Source: Acidobacteriota bacterium
Lineage (GTDB): Bacteria; Acidobacteriota; Terriglobia; Terriglobales; Acidobacteriaceae
Length of the DNA: 64,000 bases
NCBI GenBank assembly: GCA_019351975.1
Contig: JABBOG010000014.1
Coordinates: 1 to 64,000 of the forward strand
Reading direction: 5' to 3'
Part shown: positions 1,856-24,309 of the stretch, piece after piece
How positions within the stretch are numbered: position 1 is the stretch's first letter
How the letters are laid out: every line of letters starts with the position of its first letter
Position numbers and translations under genes: made by a program
The notes under the pieces: model-generated
What the model was told of the DNA's origin: nothing
The model's input: only the letters and a program-made list of their open reading frames with translations
Databases searched by the model: none

Positions 1856-3092
1856 ATGGTGACAGACCAGCAGATAAGGAGGCTATACAAATTGTCAAAC
1901 ACTGAGGATACGCAGGCGATAGCGGCGTCGAAGGCTGGCATGGATGTTAAGACGGCGCGGAAGTATCTCCGCTCCCGTCGTTTGCCGGGTGAGTTGAAGG
2001 CGGACCGTCACTGGCGAACGCGGCGGGACGAGTTCGCTGAGGTCTGGCCGGGGATCGTGGAGCAGATCCGGACGAACGCTGGGCTGGAAGCGAAGACGAT
2101 CTTTGCGGCGTTGCAACGGACGCATCCGGAGCGGTTTCCCAACGGCCAGCTGCGGACGCTGCAGCGTCGGATCAAGCGCTGGCGGGCGAGCGAAGGGCCG
2201 GCGCAGGAGGTGTACTTCGTTCAGGAGCATCGTGCCGGCGAGTTGTGCGAGTCGGACTTTACGCACATGACGAAGCTTGGGATCACTATTGGGGCGAGCC
2301 GTTCGCGCATATGGTGTACCACTTCGTGCTGACGTACTCGAACTGGGAGACGGGCACGATCTGCGCGTCCGAGAGCTTTGCGAGCCTGAGCGAAGGGTTT
2401 GAGAACGCTCTATGGGAGCTGGGCGGGGTGCCGCTGTTGCATCGTACGGACCGGATGACGGCGGCGGTAAACAACCTGTCGGAGCAGGTTGATTTTCAGA
2501 AGAACTACCAGACGTTGCTGCGGCGCTATGATCTCGAAGGCCGTCGGATCCAGACGGGCCGGCCGAACGAGAACGGCGATGTGGAGCAGCGCCACTATCG
2601 GCTCCACCGGGCGATGGATCAGGCGTTGCTGCTGCGCGGCAGCCGCGAGTTCGCGGCATTGGACAAATACAGGGTCTTCCTCGGCGAGCTCTTCAATCAA
2701 CTCAACAGCGGGCGCAAGGCACGGCTGGCTGAAGAGATGGAACAGCTTCGTCCTCTGCCGGGCCGGCGTCTGGATACGGTGAAGCGTGTGCGCTCACGGG
2801 TAAACACCGGCAGCCTGATCGTGGTGGAACGAAACAGCTACTCGGTCAACAGTCGCCTGATCGGCGAGATCGTGGAAGCGCGTGTGTTCGCCGATCACCT
2901 GGAGGTCTGGTACGGCGGCCAGAAGATGGAGCAACTGCCACGTCTGCGCGGGCGTACAAACTATCGCATCGACTACCGGCATATCATCGACTGAAACGCT
3001 GCGAGCAGGTTCCGGAGATCGTCGACGTTCCCATCCCCGAGGTGGCGCTCAGCAGCTTCGACCAGTTGTTGTGCCAAGGCGGTGTGCTATGA
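1856..3092 (+). pseudogene. istA: IS21 transposase IstA, frameshifted and internally deleted
   Basis: The N-terminal part (MVTDQQIRRLYKL, KAGMDVKTARKYLRS) is the helix-turn-helix region of IstA. The DDE catalytic core begins at DFTHMTKLGITIG. At 2291-2294 the run has four G where family members read through as TIGGEPF; one lost G shifts frame, and the protein continues in another frame as GEPFAHMVYHFVLTYSNWETG. That frame ends at a TGA (2992-2994) after NYRIDYRHIID. Family members continue there for roughly 100 more residues. The usual C-terminus (EVALSSFDQLL) reappears in a third frame just before istB, indicating an internal deletion. Its TGA overlaps the istB ATG. A sequencing error could explain the first lesion but not the second. 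Confidence 0.82.
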
Positions 3093-3952
3093 GCCATGTG
3101 ACCGCGGAGTTGACGCAGAACCTGAAACAGCTGCATCTGCCCACCGTGCGGCAGTGCTACGAAGAGGTTGCCCGGCAGGCCGAACGCGAGTCGCTCAGCT
3201 ATGAGCGCTATCTCCGCGAGCTGATCCAGCGCGAGTGCGAGGAGCGGCAGGAGAACCGCATCGTCAAGATGCTGCGCGAGTCGCAACTGCCGCTCGAAAA
3301 GACGCTCGGTGCCTTCGACACGAAACGGCTTCCTGCCAAGGCCGCACGGCAGATGCGGTCGTTGCTCGACGGCGGCTTCCTGGAGCGGAACGAGAACGTC
3401 CTGGTGTTCGGCAACCCGGGCTCGGGCAAGACGCATATGCTGCAGGCCGTCAGCCAAGAACTGGTGCGCCAGGGCCGGCGCATGCTCTTCACCACTTGCG
3501 AGATGCTGGTGAAGGATCTGCTGATCGCCAAGCGCGACCTGAAGCTGAGCAGGCTGATCAAGCGGTACTCAAGATATGAAGGCATGGTGATCGACGATCT
3601 CGGCTATATCCGTCAGACCCGAGAAGAGATGGAAGTGGTCTTTACGCTGCTGGCCGAGCGGTATGAGCGCGGCAGTGTGCTGCTGACCAGCAACCTGCCC
3701 TTCTCCAAGTGGGAAGGCATATTCAAGGACCCGATGACGACGGCCGCGGCTATCGACCGGCTTGTGCATCACAGCGTCATCGTCGAGCTCAATGTCCCCA
3801 GCTACCGACTGGAACAGGCGCGTCAAAACGTCCAGACCGTCGACCAGCCCCACGCTGAATCCTCTTCGGATGAACCGGCTTCCGGCTCCGGGCTTCGCCC
3901 TGCGCCTCCAGCCAGTTCACCCGAGCTCTATGAAGATGTCGTCAGCAGCTAA
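3089..3952 (+). CDS. istB: IS21 helper ATPase IstB
   Basis: 287 residues of the DnaA/DnaC-like AAA+ family that chooses target DNA and stimulates IstA. A Walker A motif GNPGSGKT lies at about 108-115, Walker B VIDDLGY near 168, and the sensor-like LLTSNLPF near 200. The start was chosen because its ATG overlaps the istA stop (ATGA), the usual IS21 arrangement, and because the reading frame upstream of it has no istB homology. All ATPase motifs are intact, so this gene may still be functional while its partner is broken. The C-terminal 40 residues (ESSSDEPASGSG) look low-complexity. Confidence 0.9.
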   Translation: MSHVTAELTQNLKQLHLPTVRQCYEEVARQAERESLSYERYLRELIQRECEERQENRIVKMLRESQLPLEKTLGAFDTKRLPAKAARQMRSLLDGGFLERNENVLVFGNPGSGKTHMLQAVSQELVRQGRRMLFTTCEMLVKDLLIAKRDLKLSRLIKRYSRYEGMVIDDLGYIRQTREEMEVVFTLLAERYERGSVLLTSNLPFSKWEGIFKDPMTTAAAIDRLVHHSVIVELNVPSYRLEQARQNVQTVDQPHAESSSDEPASGSGLRPAPPASSPELYEDVVSS

Positions 3953-3972
3953 TGGCGGTAAAGGTCGTTCGT

Positions 3973-4020
3973 AGGGAGAAATAGTTGTCGTTGATGGGAA
4001 AGAGTAGTTGACGCTGATCG
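3973..4020 (-). repeat. IS21 right inverted end
   Basis: Imperfect inverted copy of 1756-1804: it reads AGGGAGAAATA at its inner edge and CGCTGATC at its tip. It lies 20 bases after the istB stop. IS256-type coding sequence resumes directly beyond it. Confidence 0.72.
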
Positions 4021-4648
4021 GCGTTGCGCAGAGCGGCTATCGGCAGATCCTGGCGGTGAGCGAAGGCGCCAAGGAAGACAAGGCGAGCTGGACGGAGTTC
4101 CTGCGCGGGTTGAAGGAGCGCGGACTGAAGGGCGTCGAGCTGTTCGTGTCGGACAAGTGCCTGGGGCTGGTCGAGAACTTCGCAGACTTCTATCCCGAAG
4201 CGAAGTGGCAACGCTGCGTGGTGCACTTCTATCGCAACGTGTGGACGGCGGTGCCGACTGGCAAGGTCAAGGAAGTAGCAACGATGCTCAAGGCCATCCA
4301 CGCCCAGGAAGATGCCGAAGCGGCGAAGCAGAAGGCTCGCCTGATCGTTGAAAAGTTACGGGCGATGAAGCTGGCCAAGGCCGCCGAGATCGTCGAGAAC
4401 GGCATCGACGAGACGCTCAGTTACTACAGCTTGCCGCCGGAACACTGGCGATGTCTGCGCACCAACAACCCGCTGGAACGACTGATGCGCGAGATCCGGC
4501 GACGAACGCGAGTCGTCGGGGCCTTCCCGACGGCAACTCGGCGCTGATGTTGGTGGCCGCACGACTCCGGCATGTAGCCTCGACCCGATGGGGAACCAAG
4601 CGCTACCTCCAGATGGACCGGCTCGCCAAGATCGTCGCCATCGCCTGA
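4021..4648 (+). pseudogene. IS256-family transposase, 3' half with frameshift
   Basis: The sequence reads GVAQSGYRQILAVSEG, KEDKASWTEFLR, GLKGVELFVSDKCLGL and EAKWQRCVVHFYRNV, then HWRCLRTNNPLERLMREIRRRTRVVGAF. This is the C-terminal half of an IS256/Mutator-type DDE transposase, including the second catalytic Asp (SDKCLGL) and the acidic Glu of NPLER. The N-terminal half with the first Asp is absent, replaced by the IS21 right end. After VVGAFP one base is missing near 4529; the canonical tail DGNSALMLVAARLRHVA and TKRYLQMDRLAKI continues in another frame to a TGA at 4646-4648. It is inactive. Confidence 0.85.
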
Positions 4649-4652
4649 CATT

Positions 4653-4686
4653 TTTGCTCTTGTCCCCCATGGGGGACAAGAGCAAA
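4653..4686. repeat. 34-bp perfect palindrome after IS256 remnant
   Basis: Two 16-base arms (TTTGCTCTTGTCCCCC and its complement) flank a central AT, giving a perfect 34-bp palindrome five bases after the IS256 frame ends. It may act as a transcription terminator or be part of the IS256 end. A candidate element terminus (GTGCGAAAGTTTCTGGACAC) lies at about 4733-4752. Confidence 0.75.
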
Positions 4687-4776
4687 TCAACCCCAACCCA
4701 ACAACCTTCCTCAGTCATGACTCAAAGAGAATGTGCGAAAGTTTCTGGACACTACCCGAGCGACTGAGTAGCCCGC

Positions 4777-4875
4777 TTACAGCGTCCCCTCCACAATCAG
4801 CCGCCGCTCATCAGCACTCCGTCTCCGACGTGGAGACCGTAACGACAACCCAGCAGTACGCGCTGCTTCCGACAT
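4777..4875 (-). pseudogene. Possible IS66 orfA (TnpA-like) 5' fragment
   Basis: Reverse-strand reading from ATG at 4875 gives MSEAARTAGLSLRSP then RRRRSADERRLIVEGTL and a stop. The RRRRS..ERR.IVE.TL string matches the start of IS66 orfA/InsN proteins, which bind the element ends. It breaks off about 20 bases before the presumed IS256 terminus, so IS256 insertion may have truncated it. The match is short and made by eye. Confidence 0.42.
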
Positions 4876-5019
4876 GAAGCCATCATCTCGGAACCCATTC
4901 ACCCTGTACACACGGCCAACACCACGCGCTTACGGCGCAGAAGTGACCCACCTTTTACTAGCTGCTCGAAAGCGCCAGGCTTCACAGTCTCGATCCTGAG
5001 ATAACACAAGGGTAGTTCA

Positions 5020-6456
5020 CTAAAAGGCTTTGTACACAAGATCGGGCGCTGGGTGGCTAAGCAGTAGCGAAAACACAAAGGCCAATAACGCGAAGGCCGA
5101 CGCATAAATTGTTCGAGCATAACGCCCCTGCATCCATGGCCCGTCTGCGTTTGAAGGGCGGAGAATTAGATCGCGTAAACTCTCCCATGCCGCTAGGACA
5201 ATTGTTGATGCAGTCCAAACGCCTAGCCATACATCAAGCCATTGTATTGGGCTCAGACTTGTTGCCATGGTATTCAATTGAATCCAAGAGGACCAAAACC
5301 AGAACAGAGTGAACGCAAACCACGTAAATGTCAGACCACGGCTGAGACTGAGATAGACGTAACTCATGCAGAGCGATTTATATCGATTGCGGCCTAACAG
5401 GTTCCCAAGCCATATTTGCCAGAGCTTGTTGACGGCAACGCCGCCACCTTGAAGCAAGCCGAATACCATGAATTCAGAGGTGCGACCGTGCCAGACACCC
5501 ACTAGAAAAAAGGTCACAAAAAAGCTAAAGACACCGAGATAAGGCATGATCTTTTTAGAAGATACTCGGCGCATCAACGTCATGAGAAGGGGATTGTAGA
5601 CATATGTCTTCAGCCAGACTGAAAGAGTAATATGCCAGCGACTCCAAAAATCGATAAATGATGTTGCAGAGAATGGCCTATCGAAATTCTCGGGCAGGCG
5701 TAACCGCATCAAACGCGCGAACGCGAGCACGATATCGATGTAGCCGGAAAAGTTGCAGTATAGAAAGAACGGATATAGAACCGCGGTCTTAAAGGCCGCG
5801 AAGGCTTTCAAGGAGAGAGGTAGAGGTTGGCTCAAAGCGGCAATAGCATCCTGGTGGGCCGAAAAGAGCAGCATTGCTGCAATATTTACTTTGACGAATC
5901 CCCTCAGGATGCGTTCTATCTGGCTACCTATAACTCGTGGCCCAAGTGCTAGAGGATTTATTGCAAATTGATCGCGAGCGAAGTCATCATACCGCTCAAT
6001 CGGGCCACAAATAAAAGTAGTGAAGTTAATCACGTACGTTAGGTAAAAAAATGGTGTAATACGCCGTGGTTCTGCATCCTCCCCTGTTTCAATAATGAGG
6101 TGTAATACACGAAAGAAGATGTAAGAGAGACCTAAAACGAGATAAGGGCGACTGAGAAAGGTGGCTGACGGAAGGAATGTGTATCGCTTCAGCCATGCGT
6201 ATCCTAGGATCACGGCGATGACACAAGCGACCATAAACCGTGAAAATCCACGCTGTAACGCAAAGATACTTACATAACCGAGTACTAGGAAGCCCATAAG
6301 CGGCAAGAGCGCTGTAGGGTTTGGAGCTAAAAGAAAGATAAACACCAAGCTTGCAATCAATAGGATAATTGACCGCCACATCGGCCCGCGACGCAAATTC
6401 ACGAGGATGGTCACCGCAATACCGAAGCCTACGAATTGAATAGAAGCTGTGTCCAT
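5020..6456 (-). CDS. MBOAT-family O-acyltransferase (AlgI-like)
   Basis: 478 residues, strongly hydrophobic, with about ten predicted membrane segments. Diagnostic MBOAT/AlgI motifs are present: GPIERYDD (about 151-158), FSGYIDI (236-242), WSRWHITLSVWLKTY (His about 275) and GVWHG (322-324, with the presumed catalytic His323). Members transfer acyl groups from a cytoplasmic donor to extracytoplasmic polymers, as AlgI does with alginate and DltB with teichoic acid. It lies 2 bases downstream of the SGNH gene, matching the AlgI/AlgJ type of pairing. With the ACP and FkbH genes upstream it forms a putative polysaccharide acylation module. The acyl group and acceptor are unknown. It is the last gene of the long leftward operon. 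Confidence 0.88.
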   Translation of the reverse strand: MDTASIQFVGFGIAVTILVNLRRGPMWRSIILLIASLVFIFLLAPNPTALLPLMGFLVLGYVSIFALQRGFSRFMVACVIAVILGYAWLKRYTFLPSATFLSRPYLVLGLSYIFFRVLHLIIETGEDAEPRRITPFFYLTYVINFTTFICGPIERYDDFARDQFAINPLALGPRVIGSQIERILRGFVKVNIAAMLLFSAHQDAIAALSQPLPLSLKAFAAFKTAVLYPFFLYCNFSGYIDIVLAFARLMRLRLPENFDRPFSATSFIDFWSRWHITLSVWLKTYVYNPLLMTLMRRVSSKKIMPYLGVFSFFVTFFLVGVWHGRTSEFMVFGLLQGGGVAVNKLWQIWLGNLLGRNRYKSLCMSYVYLSLSRGLTFTWFAFTLFWFWSSWIQLNTMATSLSPIQWLDVWLGVWTASTIVLAAWESLRDLILRPSNADGPWMQGRYARTIYASAFALLAFVFSLLLSHPAPDLVYKAF

Positions 6457-6458
6457 TA

Positions 6459-7619
6459 TTACTTACCTGCCAAGGGCGACTTTGCGGACGATAGTAGTGT
6501 CTGATTGTTAGGTCTGAGCTGTGGGATTGCACCGGCTGTTAGCTGCTTTGCGAGTAGCGCCGAGATCATTGCTTGACCCGCGGCATCTGGGTGCCCGTCA
6601 GTTGGATAGTAATGCTCCTCAGATCCGGGAATGAGACTAAAGTCAGGGAGTATGTCGATATAAGTTCCACCGTGCTTTTCTATGATCGCCCGCACTTCTC
6701 TATCGAGTTTGTAAGGATCGAAACCGGCTGGCTGTTCTTTCATCGATAGAACCGCTGCATGAACCCTGCTCGGAACGAAGACAGCCGCGAAAGGGATGTG
6801 AGCAGCGTTTGCTTTTCCCTCGATCTGGGCCGCGTAACCGTCGAATTCAATCAGGTGATTCTGCCAATCCCGATTGAAGTTTGCACGCAGATAATTGGGT
6901 GCGTTTGCGCCTACTATATAAAGCTTCGCGTAAGAGGTTGGGCTCTTGTACATGTAATAAGCTAGGAGGACAGCAGTGCGTGAATCCTTGGCATAGCCAA
7001 TGAGACGATGAATCAGACTTTTAGGCTTTGGGTCCTCCTTTGGCGGGAGCAACTCTGAGGACAGTTCCACATCGCGCGATGTTAGGACCCACAAGATCAG
7101 ATCAGGTTTCGCGGCTATGATTTCTGGGAAGCGCAGCAGTACATCGTGAGGTGTCCCGTAGGACATACCTTCGTTATAAATTTGGATGGGGTGTCCGGAG
7201 ATATGTGTGAGCACTGGCGGAAGTAGGGCTGCGAAGGTTTTATCTTGAGCGACGCGTGCACCCATCGCGATTGAGGAGCCTGTCAATACAATGCGATAGG
7301 TTCCAGGAGGCTTGTTACCGCACTCATAGCCAGCCCGATGTCCGCAACTATTGAAGCGGTATGTAGTTAATGGGGTTTCCGGCAGCTTTTCCAAACACAC
7401 GCTGTTCGGCTTGCCGCGAACTCCCGTAGCAGGATCGTAGATTAGACAATCGGTGATCTCAGTCGTGGTCTTTGGAAAGAGAAAGTGAGCAACAACTTCT
7501 GTTCCTAAGCCCATGGTCAACACCGTGAGTAGGCTCAGAATCGGCAGGATAAACCAGTCCCGCGTTGGTAGTTTAGGTTCTTTTTTGTCAGGATGAGCGG
7601 TCGCGCCGTGTTGACTCAT
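6459..7619 (-). CDS. Membrane-anchored SGNH/GDSL-like acyl-transfer protein
   Basis: 386 residues: a short polar N-terminus, one membrane segment (about 22-46), then an exported SGNH-hydrolase fold. The nucleophile block reads VLTGSSIAMG (Ser115 or Ser116), and the C-terminal catalytic pair reads TDGHPDAAGQ (Asp341, His343). By analogy with AlgJ/AlgX and PatB it probably takes the acyl group relayed by the neighbouring MBOAT protein and places it on the polysaccharide in the periplasm. Its ATG overlaps the stop of the FkbH gene (ATGA), showing tight coupling. A secreted esterase removing the same group is the alternative. Confidence 0.72.
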   Translation of the reverse strand: MSQHGATAHPDKKEPKLPTRDWFILPILSLLTVLTMGLGTEVVAHFLFPKTTTEITDCLIYDPATGVRGKPNSVCLEKLPETPLTTYRFNSCGHRAGYECGNKPPGTYRIVLTGSSIAMGARVAQDKTFAALLPPVLTHISGHPIQIYNEGMSYGTPHDVLLRFPEIIAAKPDLILWVLTSRDVELSSELLPPKEDPKPKSLIHRLIGYAKDSRTAVLLAYYMYKSPTSYAKLYIVGANAPNYLRANFNRDWQNHLIEFDGYAAQIEGKANAAHIPFAAVFVPSRVHAAVLSMKEQPAGFDPYKLDREVRAIIEKHGGTYIDILPDFSLIPGSEEHYYPTDGHPDAAGQAMISALLAKQLTAGAIPQLRPNNQTLLSSAKSPLAGK

Positions 7620-9553
7620 GCTGGGGTTCTCTCCAATGTTTTAAAGGCAATATGTGAGATCAGCTTCATGGGTGGCCTTTGGGGGTTGGCTTCATTTACT
7701 AGAAGCTTCCAATAGCTTGTGCCGTCCTGAGCTTCATCGACTTTAGAAAAGCCCAGTCGCGCATAGTGGTCGGAAACCATCTTATTTTTTGCGGTAGGAC
7801 GATAGGTTCCTGTTACTGTATCGATTCCCACGGCGTTCGCGTGTTGGAGCAGTTCGGCTAAGACCATATGTTCTACTTTTCGTCCGAGAACGCGGCAACT
7901 CATGAGCCATGTATCGATGTTCCAGATATTTTTTTGCGCCTCCGGACGGCAGATGAGCACACTGATCATCCCATTGTCACCAAATCTGTCAGCCAAGCGG
8001 ATCTGCATCGCAAGGACCTCAGGATCTTCAGTAATATCGGCTATCTGCGGCTCTGTGTATCGGCGGGTTGTTAGGTTATATTGGTTGGATTTATTGATGA
8101 GTTGAACGATCCGAGTTCGTCCTGAAGCGTCGAACGGCATGAAGGTGATTGTCATGTCAAGAGCTTCTAAGTATTCATCCATGTCGCCGGCACTGTGCTT
8201 TAGAGAGGCGCGTTTCGCGTTATCAGCATAGGCTGAAGCTCGTGTCAGGTCTTCATCTGTCAACGTCACCGCTTCAAAATAGCCTGCTGCCGAAAGAGTT
8301 CTGACGTAATAGGCGGGATCTTCTGGTAACTCTGGTACAGCAACTTGAGGAAGAAATTGTCGTACAAGGTCTCGTTCGACGGGATTGTCATCCATGAAAA
8401 CTATTGAATCAAGGCTTAGCGACAATTCCTCTGCAATAGCTTTGATATTTGTGGCCTTGTCATTCCAGTTGGCCTGGAAAACCGTGAAATGATGTAGCCT
8501 TAAGAGCATCTCGGGATGTGTTTCGAAAGGAATTCGGGCAGTTTCGTCTGTGTTTTTTGAAGACACGGCAAGGATGATACCTCGCTGTCTGAGGCCCAGG
8601 GCAAATCGTTGAACCGCCAGATGTGCCTCCCCTCTGGCATCACCCTGGGCGATTTGAATACCCTCTACTCCGTCATCTCCGATAATGCCGCCCCATACAG
8701 TGTTATCCAGATCAAGAATCAAGACCTTGCGACTTTTTCCGCGCAATGCGGCTAGGATGCGCGCGACATGGTCGGCATAAAGAGGAACAAAATCACAGGA
8801 GAAAGGAATTTTAGCCATGTTCCAAAGGTCGGGTGCATGCCAGTTGGAGAGGCCGACACACTCTGCGACGCCTGAGACATCGAACAAAATGTCGCCAGAT
8901 TCATTAACGAAGGCCGCAAGCTCGCGGTTAATACCATCTATTAGGTTTCGCAATGTGCCAGGTAAGTGCCTGTCTAGACTACCGAAGAGGCTTTCAACGG
9001 GCATCGCAAAATTTTGAAAGATGCAAACGGCTTTTGAATGAGCCTTGATCCCATCACGAAGAGTCTTGAGATAAGCGATTGCAGCGCTAATGGTAGCTGT
9101 TGAGGTCTCCAATTCTCCAACAGATAGTTGGAGCGGGAGCGAACGGAAGTCGATTGCTAAAAGAACAGCGTCTAGGTTGCTGTTATTGATAATGGAATCA
9201 TGAGTGAGTGCCTGCTGCGCAACTTGATCGTAAGGCGGGACGATCAAGTCAAGTGCAATTCCGTGCCTCGCCGCAGTGGCGATGAGCGCAGGCGTGATCA
9301 GCTCAGTCGTAGAGTTACTCAGAAGACCGAGACTAAAAGGCGTCAGAGGTGCCAGGTTGCTTGATGGTGCTTTCTTCTCCATGACTGAGGCTAACCGAGT
9401 GAGTTGATTGAGATTCAAGGAGAACGAAGCTATGGACTGAATCTCGAAACCCGAAGTCCATTCAGAGGCGGATATGCGCCGCAGACGCGCAGAGAAATCA
9501 GAAGGCGATGGCGGTAACCACTGTAGCTCTGAATATAGTGAGTTCAAATGCAT
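7616..9553 (-). CDS. FkbH-type HAD-IIIC protein
   Basis: 645 residues in three parts. Residues 1-265 form an SGNH-like or substrate-binding region. Residues 275-420 are the HAD domain, with motif I LDLDNTVWGG (Asp281, Asp283), motif II SSKN (331-334), Lys366 in NDKATNI and motif IV MDDNPVERD (387-395). The C-terminal 150 residues are GNAT-like. Characterised FkbH proteins take a glyceryl unit from 1,3-bisphosphoglycerate, dephosphorylate it and load it on an acyl carrier protein. An ACP gene sits just upstream, so that reaction is the leading guess here. Neighbouring SGNH and MBOAT genes suggest the unit goes to the exopolysaccharide rather than to a polyketide. The donor identity is inference. 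Confidence 0.82.
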   Translation of the reverse strand: MHLNSLYSELQWLPPSPSDFSARLRRISASEWTSGFEIQSIASFSLNLNQLTRLASVMEKKAPSSNLAPLTPFSLGLLSNSTTELITPALIATAARHGIALDLIVPPYDQVAQQALTHDSIINNSNLDAVLLAIDFRSLPLQLSVGELETSTATISAAIAYLKTLRDGIKAHSKAVCIFQNFAMPVESLFGSLDRHLPGTLRNLIDGINRELAAFVNESGDILFDVSGVAECVGLSNWHAPDLWNMAKIPFSCDFVPLYADHVARILAALRGKSRKVLILDLDNTVWGGIIGDDGVEGIQIAQGDARGEAHLAVQRFALGLRQRGIILAVSSKNTDETARIPFETHPEMLLRLHHFTVFQANWNDKATNIKAIAEELSLSLDSIVFMDDNPVERDLVRQFLPQVAVPELPEDPAYYVRTLSAAGYFEAVTLTDEDLTRASAYADNAKRASLKHSAGDMDEYLEALDMTITFMPFDASGRTRIVQLINKSNQYNLTTRRYTEPQIADITEDPEVLAMQIRLADRFGDNGMISVLICRPEAQKNIWNIDTWLMSCRVLGRKVEHMVLAELLQHANAVGIDTVTGTYRPTAKNKMVSDHYARLGFSKVDEAQDGTSYWKLLVNEANPQRPPMKLISHIAFKTLERTPA

Positions 9554-9618
9554 ATCATCCTTCGATGTGCTGTATAGCGAAGATCGTTAGAGGCTGGGTG
9601 ACCGATTGAGTTGGCGGT

Positions 9619-9861
9619 TCATTCGGTGCGGGATTGGATTAGAGTCGCCAGATCACCGACTGTTTCCAATCTCCCTACGTCGGAGGCGGAGAGTTTGATG
9701 TTGAATTTCTTTTCAACTGTGATGATAAGCCGAATATGGGAAATGCTATCCCATCCTTCGATATCTTTTGCAGTCGTCTCGGGTGTAATTTCCGTCGAGT
9801 CAAGATCAAAGACATCATCAAAGATTGCGTTTAGGTGTGCATAAATCTGGGCTTGGTTCAT
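9619..9861 (-). CDS. Acyl carrier protein
   Basis: 80 residues, the usual ACP size. It contains the 4'-phosphopantetheine attachment motif GWDSISHIRLI with Ser39, followed by helices EKKFNIKLSASDVG and VGDLATLI. The protein is acidic, as ACPs are. It lies directly upstream of the FkbH-like gene on the same strand (65-base gap) and is far from any fatty-acid synthase gene. It is therefore probably a dedicated carrier for the acyl unit used by the FkbH/SGNH/MBOAT cassette. A phosphopantetheinyl transferase must act in trans. Confidence 0.88.
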   Translation of the reverse strand: MNQAQIYAHLNAIFDDVFDLDSTEITPETTAKDIEGWDSISHIRLIITVEKKFNIKLSASDVGRLETVGDLATLIQSRTE

Positions 9862-9919
9862 AAGTAACAGTTCCTCACTATTGGAAGACGAATCCTAAAG
9901 CTGACTGTAGGGTATCTTT

Positions 9920-10942
9920 TTATGGAGAGTAGACACGAACATATGCTACTTCCATATTTGCCTGATCAGGCATTTGGTTTGTAGGCCAACCGCCTCCCAG
10001 GCCCAAATCGACGATGGGGTAAAAGGGTTGGTGCATGATTGCAGGCGTTGGTGTGCTATAGAGTAAAGCGCCGTCGCAGTAGAATGACATTGTGGCGGCT
10101 GTCCAAAGCATTCCAAATGTGTGAAAACCATCGGACAGGTCATCTACTTTAGCGAGGTGGTGTGCAGGCGTAGATCCGGGAGGGGTCCAGTCATGTAGGG
10201 TGGTGTTGATGTATTGCGGTGCAAACATATAAGACTCGACTATATCGATCTCTCCAGCTGGAGCGTGTTGGCTAAGAGCGTTGGAATTAAGTAGCCAAAA
10301 TGCTGGCCAGGAGCCAACCGCCTTAGGAAACCTCGCTTTCATCTCAAAGTATCCATACTTTTGAGAAAAACCATTGCCATTTGAATCGACAGTCGCAATG
10401 ACTCCGGAGTACCAAGCCCCGTTATGTTTTTGTAAACGGATATTGAGCCCTCCACCAGGAAGCAGACTGAAAGGGTCTTGTCCAGGTGGATCATTGATGC
10501 CTGCCATGAACGTTGGCGTATTTGGAGATGAAGTGTCAGTGAGGCAGCATTGCACTGCGTGCGTATACCACCGTGCGCCGTTTGTGTTTGTATCCGACAA
10601 ATCCAACGATGAGAAATCATCCTCAAAAGTGAGGTGATAGCCTACCGGGACACTACTTGTGTGCGGGATATGAGGGGCCGCAGCGAAGACAACATCTTTG
10701 ACTTGCCGCTGAAATCTACCAGAGAATGGCATGACGATGGCGAGACCCACAGCCAAGCACATTAAACTTCTGCCTAACGTAGTTTGTAGAAAAGCAGCCT
10801 GGGAAGGACAGATAAGGGGATGCTTGGGGTTGATGACGCACCTCCATTGATGTAGGTTGAAGAACGTTGACTGTTTTCTCTCTGAGCATGCATCTTCAAG
10901 GCTTCGCAAGAATGATGGATGATCTATTGCAATTAGCTTCAT
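9920..10942 (-). CDS. Secreted or anchored GH16 glycoside hydrolase
   Basis: 340 residues as listed. After a hydrophobic segment (MCLAVGLAIVMPF, 61-73) comes a GH16 beta-sandwich: LTFEDDFSSLDLS (about 104-116), YGYFEMKARFP (197-206) and the catalytic GEIDIVES (Glu231, Asp233, Glu236; the ExDxxE signature). GH16 enzymes cleave or transglycosylate beta-1,3/1,4-glucans and galactans. In a Wzx/Wzy locus such a glycanase usually trims or releases the polymer. The long start overlaps the upstream glycosyltransferase by 47 bases and has no ribosome site; an ATG at 10762, just before the hydrophobic segment, may be the real start. Confidence 0.85.
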   Translation of the reverse strand: MKLIAIDHPSFLRSLEDACSERKQSTFFNLHQWRCVINPKHPLICPSQAAFLQTTLGRSLMCLAVGLAIVMPFSGRFQRQVKDVVFAAAPHIPHTSSVPVGYHLTFEDDFSSLDLSDTNTNGARWYTHAVQCCLTDTSSPNTPTFMAGINDPPGQDPFSLLPGGGLNIRLQKHNGAWYSGVIATVDSNGNGFSQKYGYFEMKARFPKAVGSWPAFWLLNSNALSQHAPAGEIDIVESYMFAPQYINTTLHDWTPPGSTPAHHLAKVDDLSDGFHTFGMLWTAATMSFYCDGALLYSTPTPAIMHQPFYPIVDLGLGGGWPTNQMPDQANMEVAYVRVYSP

Positions 10943-11882
10943 AATGTAAAATTCGTGTGCGGCGTTGGCTCCACCCCCACGTGACCTTCTCTACCAGCCT
11001 TTTACCGTGTTGTTGAAAGTGATACGCCATCCGACTGCGAACAGACATACGAATGTTGAAAGGTTCAAGGCTTGGATGTCGAGTCAAAGCATCTCTGTAA
11101 GGGATGCACTCTTCTTGAGTCCAAGGTGGAAACGCGCCATTCCATGGCTTTGGGCTGGACATAAAGTGCTTAATTCGCGGTCTTATTCTCGATTCAACGC
11201 GGGAGTTGCTCATGAAAACTGGATAATTCCAAGCTAAAGATAGTGGAAGACGCTTGTTGACGCTGACGATATTGAGAGCGTCTTGATCAGGAAATCGATT
11301 CCCTTGAGCCGAACTCCTAAATTGCTCCCAAGCAGCAGATCCAGTCTCATCCCAACCAACCCTATTGATTCGCAAAACGCCGCTATTGAAGTAGCGAAGT
11401 GATTGCTCATGCGTAAGTCCAATAGAGAGCAGATGGCGCGATAGATCCCGACTTTGTGGACTTGAGTCCGCGAGGAGAAAAGTCATAGGATCGTTTGCTG
11501 CTAGAAATTGTCCATCAGGTACGGCGGCATCGATCAGTGGATCAATGGAGTCGAGGATATGAACGTCTCCATCGAGGTATAAATACTGCGTGTACTGCTG
11601 CGGCACGAAGCGGTTGAGAAATAGTCGTGCCAACATGCTTGTCTGGTTTTCGATCAGGCTGCTGTCGACGGGCTGCAGGCCTATCTGCTCCTGCCTGCAA
11701 ATCGGCGCGAAGATTCGCTCCGTTTCTTCATCTAATCCAAAGCAGCAGATGATTACGTCTGCCTTCGAACGAGATGCATGAAACCTAGCTTGCATTGCAC
11801 TCACGAGAGTCGGAAAGAGATATTTTGGATCCGTCGTGTAAACAACACAACATTCAGGAAGTTTTGCAGTTTGCTCGATCAT
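10896..11882 (-). CDS. Glycosyltransferase, GT8-like
   Basis: 328 residues. The metal-binding motif YLYLDGDVHIL (Asp104-x-Asp106) and the late segments FPDQDALNIV and KHFMSSPKPWNG match the family 8 layout, where HxxGxxKPW binds the diphosphate. GT8 enzymes are retaining transferases using UDP-sugars. No membrane segment is evident, so it is probably cytoplasmic, adding a sugar to the lipid-linked repeat unit. The start codon overlaps the flippase stop (TAATG). The donor and acceptor cannot be read from sequence. Confidence 0.72.
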   Translation of the reverse strand: MIEQTAKLPECCVVYTTDPKYLFPTLVSAMQARFHASRSKADVIICCFGLDEETERIFAPICRQEQIGLQPVDSSLIENQTSMLARLFLNRFVPQQYTQYLYLDGDVHILDSIDPLIDAAVPDGQFLAANDPMTFLLADSSPQSRDLSRHLLSIGLTHEQSLRYFNSGVLRINRVGWDETGSAAWEQFRSSAQGNRFPDQDALNIVSVNKRLPLSLAWNYPVFMSNSRVESRIRPRIKHFMSSPKPWNGAFPPWTQEECIPYRDALTRHPSLEPFNIRMSVRSRMAYHFQQHGKRLVEKVTWGWSQRRTRILHYEANCNRSSIILAKP

Positions 11883-13393
11883 TATGCGATATCCGGTGCG
11901 AAGTTCTGCTTATGTTTAAAGAGTAAAAGAACCTTTTCAGCGACCATAGATTCGATCCCCGAAGGTGAGCCCACGGCAATCCATAAGCTGTAAAGTGTAG
12001 CAATGTATGTAGTAGCGCCTAGGAGGACAGTTGCCGCGGTTGCCGAACCAAGCTGCATTGGACCTGTAAGATGAGCAAGTTGCGGAGCTATGAGGGCAAG
12101 TATTACAGCCATGGCCCCTACACTTAGAATGCTCCGCCACGGAGCGATAATCTGCTGGATTATTGAAAGTGTAATCAATCTGCGAACAATGATCATTGAA
12201 TATATGACTGATGAAAGCTCTGACACGCCGCGAGCCATGATGATTCCCATGAATCCATATTTCAGAGCACCGAAGACGACCAAGGGTAGCTTAATCGACA
12301 ACTCCAGAAGATTATGCTTCAAGAATATTTCGGTCTTTCCAAAGGACATGACTAAGGGGCCTAGGGGAGCTGCGAAGAGAGTAGGGATAAGGCTAATAGC
12401 GAGCCAGCGCAAGAGAGTTGCAGAGCCAATCCATTTTTCTCCAAAGAATAATCTGACGAATGCCTCTGCCATAAGACTTTCGCCGATGAGAATCGGCAAA
12501 CCAAATGTCACGATCGCCCGGCAACTACTCTGGTAGCTGTTGCGTAGACGATCCGGTACTTCGCGCAAGACAGAGAATGCGGAGAGCAGTGGCCGCATGA
12601 TGGGGCTCATGAAAGCGAGTAAGGGGATATTCGCAGTGTCGTTAGCGGCTGTGAATAATCCCAATTCCGATCGCGAAGCTATTTTCCCCAGAATCAGTCT
12701 ATCGGCCTGCCAGTTTAATGAACTGACTACCTGTGCCGCGGTGATCCATCCCAAAAATCCGGAAAAAGCAGATAACTTGTCTAGGCTGAGTCGTGGCCGA
12801 TATGGGGCCAGAAAGTAAGATGTACCTGTCGAAATAAGAGGTGCCAATACTGTTCCCACAGCAATGGACCAATAGCTGTGGGTCGTAATCGCGATTGCGA
12901 TAGCAGAGGTGAATGCGACTAGTTTTCCAGCTAACTCCATGATGAAGTCAGGAGTAAAGTCGAAATTTCTCGAGAAATCTGCAATGCGAGGACTAACAAG
13001 GCCTCTGCTTGCTGGCGCGAGGCTAAGGGCACACACAAGCACTAAGAGGCGTTTATCCGCATAAAAATGAGCAAATGGCCAGCTTACAAGACAGACTATC
13101 GTACTAAGTGCAAAGCCGCGTAAAAGGCCAAGAGTAAAAGCAGTGTCATAGTGGTGTTCGTCGACATGCTTTAGCCGAACGAGCGCTTGACTTAGTGGTA
13201 ATTCCAAGGCGGCTTCAACGATATAGATAACCGTCATGGCGATGGCTACCAACCCAAAATCTTTAGGCTGCAGAAGATGTGCCAGCACAACCATCGTTGC
13301 CAGATCAACTACTCGAGATACAAGGCGTGCACCTACCGTCCATGTACCCCCAATCGCAGTTCGACGACCAACAACTGATTCCTTATCATTCAT
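11882..13393 (-). CDS. Wzx-like polysaccharide flippase
   Basis: 503 residues with about 12-14 hydrophobic segments. The N-terminus, GGTWTVGARLVSRVVDLATMVVLAHLLQPKDFGLVAIAMT, is characteristic of the polysaccharide transporter / MATE-like exporter superfamily (LPKDFGL motif). It should move the undecaprenyl-linked repeat unit across the inner membrane. The length fits family members (about 480-510). The gene is translationally coupled to the downstream GT8 gene. With a Wzy-like gene at 24590 it supports a Wzx/Wzy mechanism. A ligand other than polysaccharide is unlikely in this context. Confidence 0.87.
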   Translation of the reverse strand: MNDKESVVGRRTAIGGTWTVGARLVSRVVDLATMVVLAHLLQPKDFGLVAIAMTVIYIVEAALELPLSQALVRLKHVDEHHYDTAFTLGLLRGFALSTIVCLVSWPFAHFYADKRLLVLVCALSLAPASRGLVSPRIADFSRNFDFTPDFIMELAGKLVAFTSAIAIAITTHSYWSIAVGTVLAPLISTGTSYFLAPYRPRLSLDKLSAFSGFLGWITAAQVVSSLNWQADRLILGKIASRSELGLFTAANDTANIPLLAFMSPIMRPLLSAFSVLREVPDRLRNSYQSSCRAIVTFGLPILIGESLMAEAFVRLFFGEKWIGSATLLRWLAISLIPTLFAAPLGPLVMSFGKTEIFLKHNLLELSIKLPLVVFGALKYGFMGIIMARGVSELSSVIYSMIIVRRLITLSIIQQIIAPWRSILSVGAMAVILALIAPQLAHLTGPMQLGSATAATVLLGATTYIATLYSLWIAVGSPSGIESMVAEKVLLLFKHKQNFAPDIA

Positions 13394-13458
13394 AGATTAT
13401 TCCGGTTCTAGTATCAGACAATGGATAGTGACCTCCCGTGAGTGAGGAAGCGGACTTC

Positions 13459-14628
13459 TTAGGCAACTTCGTCATGTCGCATCTGGACTGTTGCTGGAGT
13501 TCTTGACGGTTTGTTGGCTTCTAAGTAGATAGCTTCATAATCTTGTAGGAGCCGCTGTACATTGAAGATCTCGGAACCACTCTTTGCCGCCGCACGTAAA
13601 GCGTTTCTTACTGGTTCGTCAGACATTAGCGTCCGCAGTTCTGCCGCGAGTTGGTCAGGTCGACCTGGCTTGATCAAACGCCCCGCGCGTCCAAACTCCA
13701 GCATCTCAGGAATGCCCCCAACGTCTGTGGCAACTATTGCACAACCTGCCGAGCGTGCTTCACCGATTGATAGTCCGCACGGTTCTGCGTACGATGCCAA
13801 TACATAAATGTCGGCCTTTTCCATGAGGGAGCGAGGGGCAGGGAGGAAGCCAAGGAAATGCACCCGATCTTGAAGGTGCAGATTGGCAGATTGTTGTTCC
13901 AGCTTCTCGCGATCAGGACCTTCCCCTGCGATGTAAAGATTCCAATGAGGAAACTCAGTGGTCAGAGTTGCAAATGCATCGATGAGATCGAATACTCCCT
14001 TACGACGATGAAGCCCATTAGCAGCCACGATGCATGGCGAACTGACTTCAAGAACCCTGCCGTCATTCATAAAACCATCTCGCGGAGATTGATCGGGGGC
14101 ATTCATAACCATGCAGAGGGCCCTTCGGTTGTAACCCCTTTTCAGGAGCTTGTCGTATTCAGCTTTGCTCACAGCTACAACGCGAGTGCCGAGTCGCATA
14201 ATCACCGAATGCTTGTCGAAGGAGTTGTGAACTGTCGTGATGAGGGGCACACCAGACAGTAGTGACGCAATATAACCTACAAATGCGCTACTCATCATAT
14301 GAGCATGGATTGCAATTGGGCGCGTCTTTCGTGCCATGAATGTCAACTTCCATGCAGCACGGAGAATCGCTAAGGGGTTTCTTTGCTCGTGTGGCATCAC
14401 AACGTGCTGAACGCCATACTGTTCGAGCAAAGGTACAAAGGTGCCACCCGCACTGATGACCGTGACATCATAGCCGGATCTTGCTTGAACGCAAGCAAGA
14501 TCCACAGCAACATGGACATTGCCATTCGCATAGCCACAGTGCTTAAGGATGTGGATAACTCGCATCGAAGCGGTACTGCGGGGTACCGCTGCTGTCGAGA
14601 CAGGGTGAAGGGTGCTGGACGTGGGCAT
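13459..14628 (-). CDS. Glycosyltransferase family 4
   Basis: 389 residues from the ATG at 14628, preferred over 14718 because GGAGC lies seven bases upstream of it. The GT-B fold is recognised by MRVIHILKHCGYANGN at the N-terminus, CIVAANGLHRRKGVFDLIDAF in the middle, NLYIAGEGPDREKLEQ for the nucleotide-sugar site and the EX7E motif EPCGLSIGE followed by ARSAGCAIVATDVGGIPE. These are retaining transferases working in the cytoplasm on lipid-linked acceptors. This is one of three GT4 genes in the locus. The sugar specificity is unknown. Confidence 0.87.
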   Translation of the reverse strand: MPTSSTLHPVSTAAVPRSTASMRVIHILKHCGYANGNVHVAVDLACVQARSGYDVTVISAGGTFVPLLEQYGVQHVVMPHEQRNPLAILRAAWKLTFMARKTRPIAIHAHMMSSAFVGYIASLLSGVPLITTVHNSFDKHSVIMRLGTRVVAVSKAEYDKLLKRGYNRRALCMVMNAPDQSPRDGFMNDGRVLEVSSPCIVAANGLHRRKGVFDLIDAFATLTTEFPHWNLYIAGEGPDREKLEQQSANLHLQDRVHFLGFLPAPRSLMEKADIYVLASYAEPCGLSIGEARSAGCAIVATDVGGIPEMLEFGRAGRLIKPGRPDQLAAELRTLMSDEPVRNALRAAAKSGSEIFNVQRLLQDYEAIYLEANKPSRTPATVQMRHDEVA

Positions 14629-14724
14629 GCGAGTAGCTCCAGTATTACATGGTTTCAGTTTAAATCTTAGCGATTTGCCAGGAGAGGAGAGTTGGAGGCA
14701 CGCAGGGTACCCGGGCACTAAACC

Positions 14725-15423
14725 TCATTGAACGTGTTTGCGATGAGGATTCTTATAGTGGAACAGCGCTGTTGCGCGGATCTTATCGGGATCACAAGGT
14801 TCATTTGTGTGAATTGAGCGATACCCCCAAAAGAAGTAGATATTTCCGGGCTTCATCTTTATCCGCATCGGCTGTAGGTGTCTAGCGCTGACCCGATTTC
14901 TCAGGAGCTTCTGCGTTATCGGGTTATCCAAAAGTACCTTATCAAAAGCATTAGCAATGTAGGTACTGCGTATCGTCCGAGTGTTCGGATACATTAGCAA
15001 GTCTCCGGCGAGGCCGTCCGCCGGAATATGAATCGGGATGAGCGCCGTAACAACGTACGAATCGTAATGAAATATCAGCGAGTTCTTCTGGCCTGTGGAT
15101 CCAGATAAACATCGAAGGACCTGATAGAACTCCTCTTTATCAGCTGGATTCCCGGTGCCCTGCTCATATAAGTCATAAATTAACCGATTAAAATCTTCTG
15201 AATGGGCGAGTTCCTCTAGCCCAGATCCGGCGACGGCATCAGGGCCGTTGAAGTGAACATACTCATTACCAGCATTCCTGATTGCGTCACTCACGAACGA
15301 CTGCATCCTAGTTAGGTCGGAGGGTTGAACATAGTTAGGGATGCACGCGAACCCCTTCGTATCAAGTTCGCTGACGAGTTCAAATACCTGCTGCGGCGTT
15401 ACCTGGGGGACTGAGATTGTCAT
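14725..15423 (-). CDS. Fe(II)/2-oxoglutarate dioxygenase-like (PhyH type) protein
   Basis: 232 residues. A plausible metal triad is visible: HYD (His119, Asp121) and SIHTNE (His205), with Arg216 in KIRATALFHY placed where the 2-oxoglutarate carboxylate is held. This spacing is that of phytanoyl-CoA-dioxygenase-like enzymes. Such enzymes hydroxylate or otherwise oxidise small molecules or tailoring substrates. It sits inside the exopolysaccharide locus between a GT4 and the initiating transferase, so it may modify a nucleotide sugar, an acyl substituent or the glycan. No specific substrate can be named. The assignment rests on motifs seen by eye. Confidence 0.65.
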   Translation of the reverse strand: MTISVPQVTPQQVFELVSELDTKGFACIPNYVQPSDLTRMQSFVSDAIRNAGNEYVHFNGPDAVAGSGLEELAHSEDFNRLIYDLYEQGTGNPADKEEFYQVLRCLSGSTGQKNSLIFHYDSYVVTALIPIHIPADGLAGDLLMYPNTRTIRSTYIANAFDKVLLDNPITQKLLRNRVSARHLQPMRIKMKPGNIYFFWGYRSIHTNEPCDPDKIRATALFHYKNPHRKHVQ

Positions 15424-15510
15424 GTTGGCTCCTTCGTTAAGCCTGGATTTAGCAAATGCGTGGTTTGTTCGAGGATGCGGTTACTGGATATCGGCATAAC
15501 TTCTCAAACG

Positions 15511-16974
15511 CTAATAGGCACCCTCCGAAAGCAAGATTGTCTTAATCGTGCGAAGAAGTATGTACGTATCAAGAGAGAGCGACCAGTTTCGCACATAGTA
15601 GTCGTCAATCCGTGTCCGAAGTTCATAAGTCGTATTATTTCTTCCGCTCACCTGCCATAGACCGGTAAGTCCCGGAGTAACCAGCTGATACTGAACAAAG
15701 CTGTCTCCATACTTTTCGACCTCCGCGTTTACTATGGGTCTAGGTCCAACCAAGCTCATCTCTCCACATATGACATTCCATAACTGAGGTAGCTCATCGA
15801 GGCTGGACTTACGCAGGAGATTACCAACTATAGTTACGCGGGGATCATGTTTCAGCTTATGATCTCTTTGCCATTCTTGATCAAGCTCAGGATTAGATTC
15901 TAAGTGAGATCGTAAGATATCGTCCGCGCCCACTAACATAGATCTGAATTTCCAAACTCGAAATGGCTTATTGTTCCTACCGATGCGTAACTGCCCATAA
16001 AAAATAGGGCCTCTGGATCCTAATTTCACAGCTACACAAATGAGGAGCAACAGTGGGGAAAGCAGTGCAGCTATCGCAAGTGATACGACGACGTCAAAAC
16101 TCCTCTTACAGAAGCGCGGCCAGAAAAGTCCCAACCGTTGATCTAACTTCAATGTAAGGACGCCACATATGTCTTTTGCGCTAACAGAAAGACTTCGTAA
16201 GCCAAAAAGATCTGGAACTATTAATACGTTCTTATAGTCTTTTACGTGTTGCGACACGACGCGCCGCACTGATTCGGCACCGGCCGTAGGCATTGCGATG
16301 AGTGCATATGCTCCCGGATAAACTGCCCCTACAGTTTGCGCCTGAGAGATGCTTCCAAATAGAACGTCACAAGGAAGAGACGTATCAACTTCATCACCCA
16401 AGCATTCGCTAGAGTCGAGAAGAATGGCAACCGGTCGAAGACCGAGACGTGGATGTCCTTTCAGCAGATTCAACATGCGGACGCCAGCCTCATGTTCGCC
16501 TAATATTACGGTAGCAATGCCCCACCATGGCCGTTTTGCGCAATACCCTCGCAGAAGACGCCGGCTCACCGGTACTAAAAGGATAGTTAGGATCCATGCG
16601 AGTCCAAAAACAATTCGCGAAAACATTAGGCCAGTCTGCAGAAAAAATGAGATCGCGATCAGAATGAAAAAGCTTATTGTCGATGCCCGTAGGATGATTC
16701 TAAATTCATCCGTAGGTGAGCATGCAATACCAGGGTATAAACCGGAAAAAGCAAACACGACCAGGAAAACCAGAACAGCGGGTGCGAATGCGAGCCAGTC
16801 TCCTAATATGAAGTGTGCATGGAACACATATCTCGTGAGAACCGCCAGTGAACCTGCGGCACCTAGCGCGAGAAGATCTGCGAAAACTATGCTTCCATAA
16901 GTTAACCATCTGCTCGATGGGTGGTTTAATACTAATGGATATTGTGTTGAGGCCACGACGGAAGATGTACCCAT
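15511..16974 (-). CDS. Undecaprenyl-phosphate sugar-1-phosphate transferase (WbaP-like)
   Basis: 487 residues. Four or five N-terminal membrane helices are followed by a Rossmann-like loop domain ([18 protein letters not shown]). The catalytic bacterial sugar transferase domain starts near 290 ([22 protein letters not shown]), with [29 protein letters not shown] and [11 protein letters not shown]. This enzyme starts repeat-unit assembly by moving a hexose-1-phosphate onto undecaprenyl phosphate. The full WbaP topology, rather than the short PglC form, is present. The gene lies near the centre of the locus. Galactose or glucose is the usual sugar; which one cannot be told here. Confidence 0.92.
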
Positions 16975-17046
16975 TTGAGGGCTCCAAAAGTGAAGTGTTA
17001 AGGTGCGGGAGAATGTGAGTCTGACGGTAGTTTGTCAGATAAGAAA

Positions 17047-18276
17047 TTACAAATGCGACTCTGCTACTATGTGATCGTTGAAGGGAGTGGAGCTAACAGT
17101 AATTACTGATATACCTACGGCGCGTTCCAATATCCTCTCGAAGCCAGCTAAAAATTTTGCCTCAGAAAATTCAGATGCTCGGGCTCGCAATTCACATTCT
17201 TGGAACTTGTGCTCTCTCATCTCAAAACGGTGGATCGCCTCTGCAAGACCATGTTCAGTCGGTTCGTCGTAGAAAACTGCTGTGTCATCTGTCATGGAGT
17301 CCAGAATTCCACCGAGCTTGAAAGCTACAACAGGGCAACCACAAGCGATAGCCTCAACTGGGACGATTCCAAAGTCTTCTACTCCAGGGAAGAGTAGGGC
17401 ACGAGCCTGAGAATAAAATACTGTGAGCATTTCATCGCTTGCGAAACCAATAAACTCTGCATCCACACTCAGCGATGTTGATAACCTCTGCAGCGATTCA
17501 GTCTCAGGCCCCTTGCCCACGACACGCAGTTTGCGCTTGGTGATGGCGCAAGCCCTGATAGCATGCTCAATCCGTTTGTAGGGAACCAATGCTGATACTA
17601 CGAGGTATCGGTCTCCGGCATCTCTCTTACATCCCGAAAAGCGTTCGGTATCGACAGGGGGTGCGAGAACTTCAGCTTTTCTCCCATAGATACGCAGCAC
17701 GCGTTCCGCAACGTAAGTCGAGTTTGCGATAAAGAGATCAACCCTCCCGCAAGTCATGGTGTCATAAAACTGTAATAGTTTGACCAGGGGACGAAAGAAC
17801 ATGTATGAAGCGAAGCGTCCTACACGCTGCGGCCCGAAATAATCATCAAAGAGATCCCACGCATACCTCATCGGTGTATGGATGTAACAGATATGAAATG
17901 GTCGAGATTTGAGTGGACGCCTCACCATCGCTTTCGCGACAGCATGGGAAGTAGAAATCACCAATTCTGTGGCATGTGCTTTCGTCATCTCAGCAAACAG
18001 CGGATAAAAAGGAAGATAATTACGATATTTACGGGGAGCTTGTGGCATGTATTGGAGTAGGCTAGTGTGGATAACCCTAGCTTCAATGGTGTTAGAAGTG
18101 GACCCAGATATATGAAGCAACGTCCACAATGGGGCTTGAGGAAATCTCTTGCAGAGAAGTTCCAAAACCTTTTCCCCTCCCCGCATACCAGTAAGCCAGT
18201 CATGCACGAGTGCCACACGACCACTATCCGCTTTCGTTTGCAACCCTTTGTCGACTTCATTGGGGAACTTGATCAT
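17047..18276 (-). CDS. Glycosyltransferase family 4
   Basis: 409 residues, GT-B fold. The N-terminus VALVHDWLTGMRGGEKVLELL and the later ICYIHTPMRYAWDLFDDY are typical of a common mannosyltransferase-like GT4 group found in exopolysaccharide loci. The EX7E motif is EDFGIVPVE, followed by AIACGCPVVAFKLGG. Its ATG overlaps the stop of the upstream GT4 gene (ATGA), so the pair is co-translated. It probably adds one residue of the repeat unit. The sugar is unknown. Confidence 0.88.
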   Translation of the reverse strand: MIKFPNEVDKGLQTKADSGRVALVHDWLTGMRGGEKVLELLCKRFPQAPLWTLLHISGSTSNTIEARVIHTSLLQYMPQAPRKYRNYLPFYPLFAEMTKAHATELVISTSHAVAKAMVRRPLKSRPFHICYIHTPMRYAWDLFDDYFGPQRVGRFASYMFFRPLVKLLQFYDTMTCGRVDLFIANSTYVAERVLRIYGRKAEVLAPPVDTERFSGCKRDAGDRYLVVSALVPYKRIEHAIRACAITKRKLRVVGKGPETESLQRLSTSLSVDAEFIGFASDEMLTVFYSQARALLFPGVEDFGIVPVEAIACGCPVVAFKLGGILDSMTDDTAVFYDEPTEHGLAEAIHRFEMREHKFQECELRARASEFSEAKFLAGFERILERAVGISVITVSSTPFNDHIVAESHL

Positions 18277-19397: not shown

Positions 19398-19510
19398 GGA
19401 ACTCCTTTAAACGTTTATAGGCAAGCTAAGTATTTTCAGGAAGGTAAGGAACGACGTGCGTGTCTTTGAGATCTATGCTGACGGAGCCGAATTTGAATTG
19501 CTATGGAGCA

Positions 19511-19591: not shown

Positions 19592-19647
19592 CACTATCTC
19601 CGATATCTAAATAAATCAATGACAGATAAATAATTACAAGGAGACAT

Positions 19648-21831: not shown

Positions 21832-21900
21832 GCCTCAAAAGATGCTTCAGAAAGATAGGCTCATAGTTGAGAGCGGATAAAGATGACTCGAGCGAGAGAT

Positions 21901-24267: not shown

Positions 24268-24309
24268 TCTTGACCTCCCAAGATATTTGCTTGAAGTATA
24301 GGACAACAC

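Follow-up and report, generated by a model that had tools for sequence, protein, structure and literature searches.

The window analyzed here is a stretch of 64,000 nucleotides (positions 1 to 64,000, forward strand, of contig JABBOG010000014.1, assembly GCA_019351975.1) from an Acidobacteriota bacterium of the family Acidobacteriaceae. At positions 5020-9861 its minus strand carries four genes, in the order acyl carrier protein (ACP), FkbH-type loader, SGNH-fold protein and MBOAT acyltransferase, with which a Wzx/Wzc-type polysaccharide cluster ends. This cassette probably directs the carrier-protein-dependent acylation of an exported polysaccharide (probability roughly 0.68), in a manner similar to the Dlt system, with FkbH as the loader and glyceryl as the transferred group. 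We infer that the FkbH protein would take a glyceryl unit from 1,3-bisphosphoglycerate, remove the phosphate and load the unit as a thioester on the ACP; that the MBOAT protein, through His323, would carry it across the membrane to Tyr475 in its own LVYKAF tail; and that Ser116 of the SGNH protein would accept it and hand it to a hydroxyl group of the exopolysaccharide. Such chemistry of FkbH proteins, starting from 1,3-bisphosphoglycerate, is described in the available part of PMC7489565. What the sequence itself establishes is the presence of the four genes with their catalytic residues, the fact that they are conserved together, the shuttle tail and the location beside polysaccharide genes.

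The ACP gene (9619-9861) encodes a discrete protein of 80 residues that matches PF00550 with 33.5 bits (cut-off 20.8). It is separated by 65 nucleotides from the FkbH gene (7616-9553), which encodes a HAD-IIIC/acyltransferase loader of 645 residues with matches to PF21211 and TIGR01686, the latter scoring 294 bits and thus above the curated threshold of 146.65. The FkbH stop overlaps the start of the SGNH gene (6459-7619; 386 residues, assigned by model fold and motif) by 4 nucleotides (ATGA), and 2 nucleotides separate the SGNH gene from the MBOAT gene (5020-6456; 478 residues; PF03062 with 69 bits, cut-off 27). The C-terminal acyl-shuttle hexapeptide of the MBOAT protein is encoded at 5023-5040. 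This compact same-strand arrangement, with its ATGA overlap and two-base gap, had been pointed out in an earlier note on this DNA and is borne out by the open reading frames (ORFs) and the sequence. The genome (3.9 Mb in 132 contigs, 95.1% complete) has its sole FkbH match in the cassette, as well as its sole MBOAT, no other being detected by Pfam PF03062.

Conservation of catalytic residues was assessed in alignments whose rows were picked to span the variants and represent a subset of the loci. W37-D38-S39 of the ACP is invariant in 17/17 aligned cassette ACPs; Ser39, the phosphopantetheine site, has its codon at 9745-9747. A DxDxT motif of the HAD type and a conserved C-terminal cysteine are landmarks of the FkbH family. 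In the window protein these are DLDNT (D281, L282, D283, N284, T285) and Cys553 (within MSCRVLGR; codon 7895-7897), which, together with D388 and D389, are invariant in 19/19 sequences. The SGNH proteins share Ser116 (GSS, 7272-7274), His343 (DGH, 6591-6593), Cys92 and Cys100 without exception (28/28), and His323 of the MBOAT protein (WHG, codon 5488-5490) is invariant in 30/30.

The SGNH protein itself stays below the Pfam cut-off (PF13472, 29 vs 32.9 bits). Its AlphaFold2 model (predicted local distance difference test (pLDDT) 90.2, predicted template modeling score (pTM) 0.86) has a clear SGNH fold in a PDB fold search and a single N-terminal helix, residues 19-47, that reads as a membrane anchor. 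CgnD (8a2n) and general SGNH esterases rank above PatB (8tlb, E 1.1e-3) and a D-alanyl-lipoteichoic acid synthetase (3bma, E 5.4e-3; we take this entry to be DltD), both of which match the model weakly; because of this ranking the fold does not decide which transferase is nearest. Profile comparisons between SGNH subfamilies were likewise weak (A1-A7 79%, A1-A5 10%, A5-A6 0.3% probability), and most subfamilies, having little or no Pfam match, are called SGNH-like from motif and position. The MBOAT model (pLDDT 89.9) has DltB as its best PDB match and shows two C-terminal helices (403-432 and 445-466), followed by the tail.

This tail, LVYKAF, has Leu instead of Phe at the first motif position, and the codon of Tyr475 lies at 5032-5034. 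According to the available part of PMC12148441, the MBOAT protein PatA acetylates its own tyrosine in a C-terminal FxYxxF motif, there is evidence that the SGNH partner takes the acetyl group from this tyrosine, and the shuttle motif of Dlt resides on DltX, a peptide. An exact [FILV]xYxxF closes 64 of the 68 full-length MBOATs encoded next to FkbH. The exceptions are L072, which is close to a contig end and stops early, and three loci of one genus (L111, L112, L114), which have a one-helix peptide of 44-52 residues, ending LVYQAF, between the SGNH and MBOAT genes. Three loci of another sample (L202, L203, L204) combine a tail-less MBOAT with a peptide of 42-50 residues ending FEYRVF, LVYREF or LVYKNM; the SGNH-like genes near them were recognized in L202 by motif only, in L203 and L204 through profile similarity to A7. 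Thus 6/7 loci without a fused tail, vs 0/76 with one, encode a separate peptide of one helix with the C-terminus [FL]xYxx[FM] (Fisher p 1.9e-8, which is indicative only, the criteria having been set after the first cases and the rows being non-independent). One of the 60 loci counted as MBOAT-free, L183, also scored for the peptide, and its hit looks like the C-terminal end of an MBOAT truncated at the contig start. L111, L112, L114 and L202-L204 thus hold the components of a Dlt machine, FkbH taking the position of DltA. No separate DltX-like peptide was found at 2020-12553 of the window, where the tail is fused, and a search for the L111 peptide across the window's family (250 genomes) recovered only the three already known.

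Split shuttles were also seen outside any visible carrier system. L168 and L169 encode MBOATs of 389 residues, with no FkbH or ACP gene in the stretch examined, each followed by a separate membrane peptide ending SSKFIYIDF (58 residues at 8872-9048, plus strand, in L168; an ORF with the same tail at about 3475-3670, minus strand, in L169) and then by a protein of 335-339 residues.

The earlier note had proposed a survey of the co-occurrence of the four genes in other loci. A genome scan retrieved 68 relatives of the window FkbH (39-69% identity) from Acidobacteria, Burkholderiales, Bradyrhizobium, Xanthobacter, sphingomonads, Myxococcales and others. For those with both flanks of at least 5 kb, an MBOAT gene was present within 5 kb in 39/41 and an ACP gene in 41/41 cases; for all 68, cut contigs included, the numbers were 56 and 60. 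As a rough background, in which more distant MBOATs may be missed, 60 family genomes, each about 4 Mb in size, gave 18 matches to the window MBOAT as query, counting the window's own, that is, <0.1 per Mb. Given the MBOAT and ACP counts near close FkbH relatives, the four-gene set is not a chance cluster.

A tree of 103 FkbHs was computed by a quick method, with several long branches unsure and with the sample from the phylum of the Rhizobacter genome holding L050 left out. All 70 MBOAT-linked FkbHs, the window's included, fall into one clade of 83 (Shimodaira-Hasegawa-like approximate likelihood ratio test 98), whose other 13 rows comprise 10 cut contigs and 3 loci without MBOAT. The MBOAT label changes 4 times on the tree without cut contigs and 12 times if cut contigs are taken as unlinked, compared with a mean of 28 after shuffling; a single origin of the linkage is enough. 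Pairwise distances of FkbH, MBOAT and ACP correlate with r 0.82-0.83 over 60 loci (0/2000 permutations as high), a correlation that includes shared host descent. These results bear on plain O-acetylation, the chief alternative, in which the MBOAT protein would use acetyl-coenzyme A (acetyl-CoA) and FkbH and ACP would make, e.g., a cytoplasmic glyceryl-bearing sugar. Some FkbH-linked MBOATs do end in FLYFQF or FIYFQF, as unlinked MBOATs do, but acetylation leaves the single clade, the co-divergence and the near-constant linkage of FkbH and ACP with MBOAT in close relatives unexplained and is the weaker for it; moreover, no ACP gene was present in the flanks of about 1-1.5 kb of MBOATs without FkbH (0/14, contig-cut L138 omitted). 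We regard this alternative as quite unlikely.

Several observations weigh against Dlt-like acylation with FkbH as the loader. Within the window's phylum, FkbH was found in 29 of 297 sampled genomes (38 matches, of which the 37 outside the window were retrieved), and of the 31 with full flanks only 13 have an MBOAT and 24 an ACP gene nearby. In the phylum of the Rhizobacter genome, FkbH was found at E <= 1e-60 in 46 of 398 sampled genomes; 40 of the 65 listed matches were taken, roughly from the best downward with several passed over, and 12 of the 26 with full flanks have an MBOAT and 22 an ACP gene. Linkage was seen in 8/11 of those above 690 profile bits and in 4/15 below, so that, with both wider samples considered, MBOAT linkage is confined to one part of the FkbH family. 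Even inside the clade, no MBOAT gene lies within 5 kb of FkbH in L032, L084 and L110. The TIGR01686 cut-off is exceeded by FkbHs with and without MBOAT linkage, and membership in this family is no proof of substrate. The C-terminal tail was dropped as a mark of carrier use, since MBOATs without FkbH carry it too, and a split shuttle alone is no proof either, as two FkbH-unlinked loci have a separate DltX-like peptide. Similarity to DltB was also dropped as evidence: DltB is the best NCBIfam match of the window MBOAT (164 bits), but three MBOATs without FkbH score the same (169, 176 and 169), which makes the match non-diagnostic. Finally, all chemical steps and the acceptor are inferred from the sequence.

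The gene order of the window recurs in Acidobacteria, Burkholderia and Caulobacteraceae. Other orders are MBOAT-SGNH-ACP-MaoC-SDR-FkbH (Rhizobacter, Rhodocyclales, Myxococcales), FkbH-MBOAT-SGNH-ACP-VOC (Bradyrhizobium) and MBOAT-SGNH-ACP-FkbH (erythrobacters and rhizobia), the additional gene families being named from one scanned member each. A MaoC-SDR fusion directly follows the MBOAT gene in six loci (five acidobacterial, one from Caulobacteraceae). Overall, genes near FkbH include MaoC (10 loci), SDR (10), the MaoC-SDR fusion (9) and VOC (21, at least 4 of these loci without MBOAT), and methyltransferase genes also occur beside or inside cassette operons. Tailoring genes in these positions are expected if an ACP-bound acyl group is the donor, and they suggest that relatives build other acids on the ACP. 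In our own reading, the MaoC protein would remove the 3-hydroxyl group from glyceryl-ACP to yield pyruvyl-ACP, which the SDR protein would reduce to lactyl-ACP. The VOC family includes epimerases, and the VOC protein may invert C2 of the acyl group.

The recurrence of these families near FkbH also favors a variant in which the same machine transfers an acid other than glyceryl, be it lactyl after MaoC dehydration and SDR reduction, a C2-epimer made by VOC, or an O-methylated acid; lactyl and glyceryl are both listed as exopolysaccharide substituents in the available part of PMC4432689. No MaoC, SDR, VOC or methyltransferase gene lies beside the window cassette, however, and a search of the window's genome for the MaoC-SDR fusion gave no orthologue (best match 27 bits), a negative that is tempered by the 95% completeness of the assembly and by the apparent mobile-element relics directly downstream of the cassette. 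We consider the variant unlikely. Because the fusion orthologue is missing, plain glyceryl appears the likeliest substituent in the window organism. The relics are ORFs at the contig start (1-4650), directly downstream of the MBOAT gene, that read as transposase/IstB-like.

The glyceryl route is the economical reading since it uses all four genes and accounts for the regular ACP and for the tailoring genes. The earlier note had already proposed the transfer from FkbH via ACP, MBOAT and SGNH to the polymer, and was silent on the shuttle motif and the likeness to Dlt. Its route fits the conservation of the cassette, the single clade, the co-divergence, the catalytic residues and the fused or separate shuttle tyrosine, while its chemistry keeps the standing of a prediction; its wording 'glycerate-like (or reduced)' proved apt, with reductase and dehydratase genes added in some relatives and no orthologue of the MaoC-SDR fusion in the genome of the window organism.

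A set on pSymB of Sinorhizobium meliloti consists of an MBOAT ending FLYQGF, an SGNH-like gene, ACP and FkbH, with a VOC-family ORF upstream; capsule genes, RkpR among them, are about 9-12 kb away. Among the plasmid records with an FkbH relative, 40/76 are from Sinorhizobium. In strain 1021 (L162) the FkbH frame is split into ORFs of 462 and 271 residues and the record of strain 2011 has one full-length match, which reflects either a strain difference or a record error. In L166 (CP050512.1) the SGNH-like gene at 2386-3615 is annotated as 'TonB-dependent receptor'; it belongs to family c30 (564 bits), found beside MBOAT elsewhere. The open-access literature, in its available parts, gives no function for the locus tags of the S. 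meliloti cassette. The presence of the cassette in this genetically tractable species makes direct testing feasible.

FkbH was also seen in other company. In L187, L191, L219 and L165 its neighbors are a methyltransferase gene (c37) and VOC genes, MBOAT is absent from the surrounding 5 kb (by annotation in L165), and FkbH possibly belongs to another pathway. In L115, L116, L118, L133 and L134 it is near glycosyltransferases (c4) and the flippase-like-reading family c25, again with no MBOAT within 5 kb, and may represent another use of FkbH in glycan loci. In L073 and L097, both on cut contigs, close relatives of the window FkbH follow a VOC gene and very large proteins (about 1440 and 940-960 residues), one of which reads like a nonribosomal peptide synthetase (NRPS) condensation domain.

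Upstream of the cassette, the polysaccharide cluster (9920-27363) encodes on the minus strand, according to Pfam, GH16, GT8, Wzx, GT4 proteins, a sugar-phosphate transferase, a Wzc-like protein, Poly_export and GT2; its proteins at 14725-15423 and 24590-26044 have no Pfam match. An AT3 acyltransferase on the plus strand of the same cluster (26149-27363, Pfam) is perhaps a second acylation system, conceivably for acetyl groups. Sugar-polymer genes adjoin the cassette in other loci as well. This setting bears on an origin of FkbH and ACP in a polyketide or nonribosomal pathway that stands beside MBOAT and SGNH by chance or as tailoring. FkbH proteins of such pathways have been described (available part of PMC7489565), and for the bsl peptide cluster an FkbH domain and an MBOAT were proposed to have separate roles (available part of PMC13122637). 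With no polyketide synthase (PKS) or NRPS domain among the 17 window proteins scanned (5020-27363), sugar-polymer genes in their place and a cassette that recurs in many other loci, we judge this origin very improbable.

A 2025 paper states, in its available part, that MBOAT/SGNH pathways other than Dlt operate without a carrier protein (PMC12148441). The FkbH cassette family appears to be an exception: with an ACP in the gene row and near 41/41 close relatives, the 'no carrier' description of acyl-CoA-type systems does not apply to it. The statement of the earlier note that the complete route lacked an established description extends to the open-access literature (coverage without most subscription papers, preprints and patents), where no FkbH-ACP-MBOAT-SGNH route was found and FkbH and MBOAT occur together for peptide natural products only. 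On balance, we lean slightly toward regarding the cassettes as a second widespread family of carrier-dependent envelope acylation beside Dlt, which would be FkbH-based, take both acyl group and energy from the glycolytic acyl phosphate 1,3-bisphosphoglycerate with neither adenylation nor CoA, employ acyl-tyrosine transfer across the membrane (through a fused tail or a DltX-like peptide) and, with added enzymes acting on the ACP (MaoC, SDR, VOC, methyltransferase), produce varied esters (glyceryl, lactyl and others). Certain bacterial polysaccharides might owe their glycerate or lactate esters to it. If so, the range of exportable acids would be widened beyond acetyl and D-alanine, polymer decoration would be tied to glycolytic flux, and a route would open to designing polysaccharides esterified with hydroxy acids, with texture, metal binding and biofilm traits in view.

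PatAB, AlgIJX and WssHI resemble the cassette in that their MBOAT has two helices at the C-terminus and an FxYxxF-like tail and their SGNH protein an N-terminal helix; those systems are said to use acyl-CoA and no carrier (available part of PMC12148441), whereas here an ACP and FkbH stand in the gene row. With the FkbH loaders of glyceryl-ACP in tetronate and methoxymalonate pathways (e.g., Mad7/Mad8, Mad14/Mad12; available part of PMC7489565) the cassette shares the FkbH domain, DLDNT and an adjacent discrete ACP, but its partners are MBOAT and SGNH proteins and not a PKS; the MBOAT-linked FkbHs of the sample form a separate clade, in a tree that includes no Mad protein. The likeness to DltABCDX comprises the discrete carrier protein, the MBOAT with its invariant histidine, the acyl-tyrosine shuttle motif, the SGNH protein and, in six FkbH loci, a separate DltX-like peptide. 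The cassette differs from Dlt in its loader, FkbH in place of the adenylating ligase DltA; no AMP-binding (DltA) protein is among the 17 window proteins scanned (5020-27363), the rest of the genome not having been searched. It differs further in the score of the window MBOAT, 163.7 bits vs the DltB equivalog cut-off of 375, in the fusion of the window's shuttle to the MBOAT, and in its settings, which are polysaccharide clusters of Acidobacteria and Proteobacteria.

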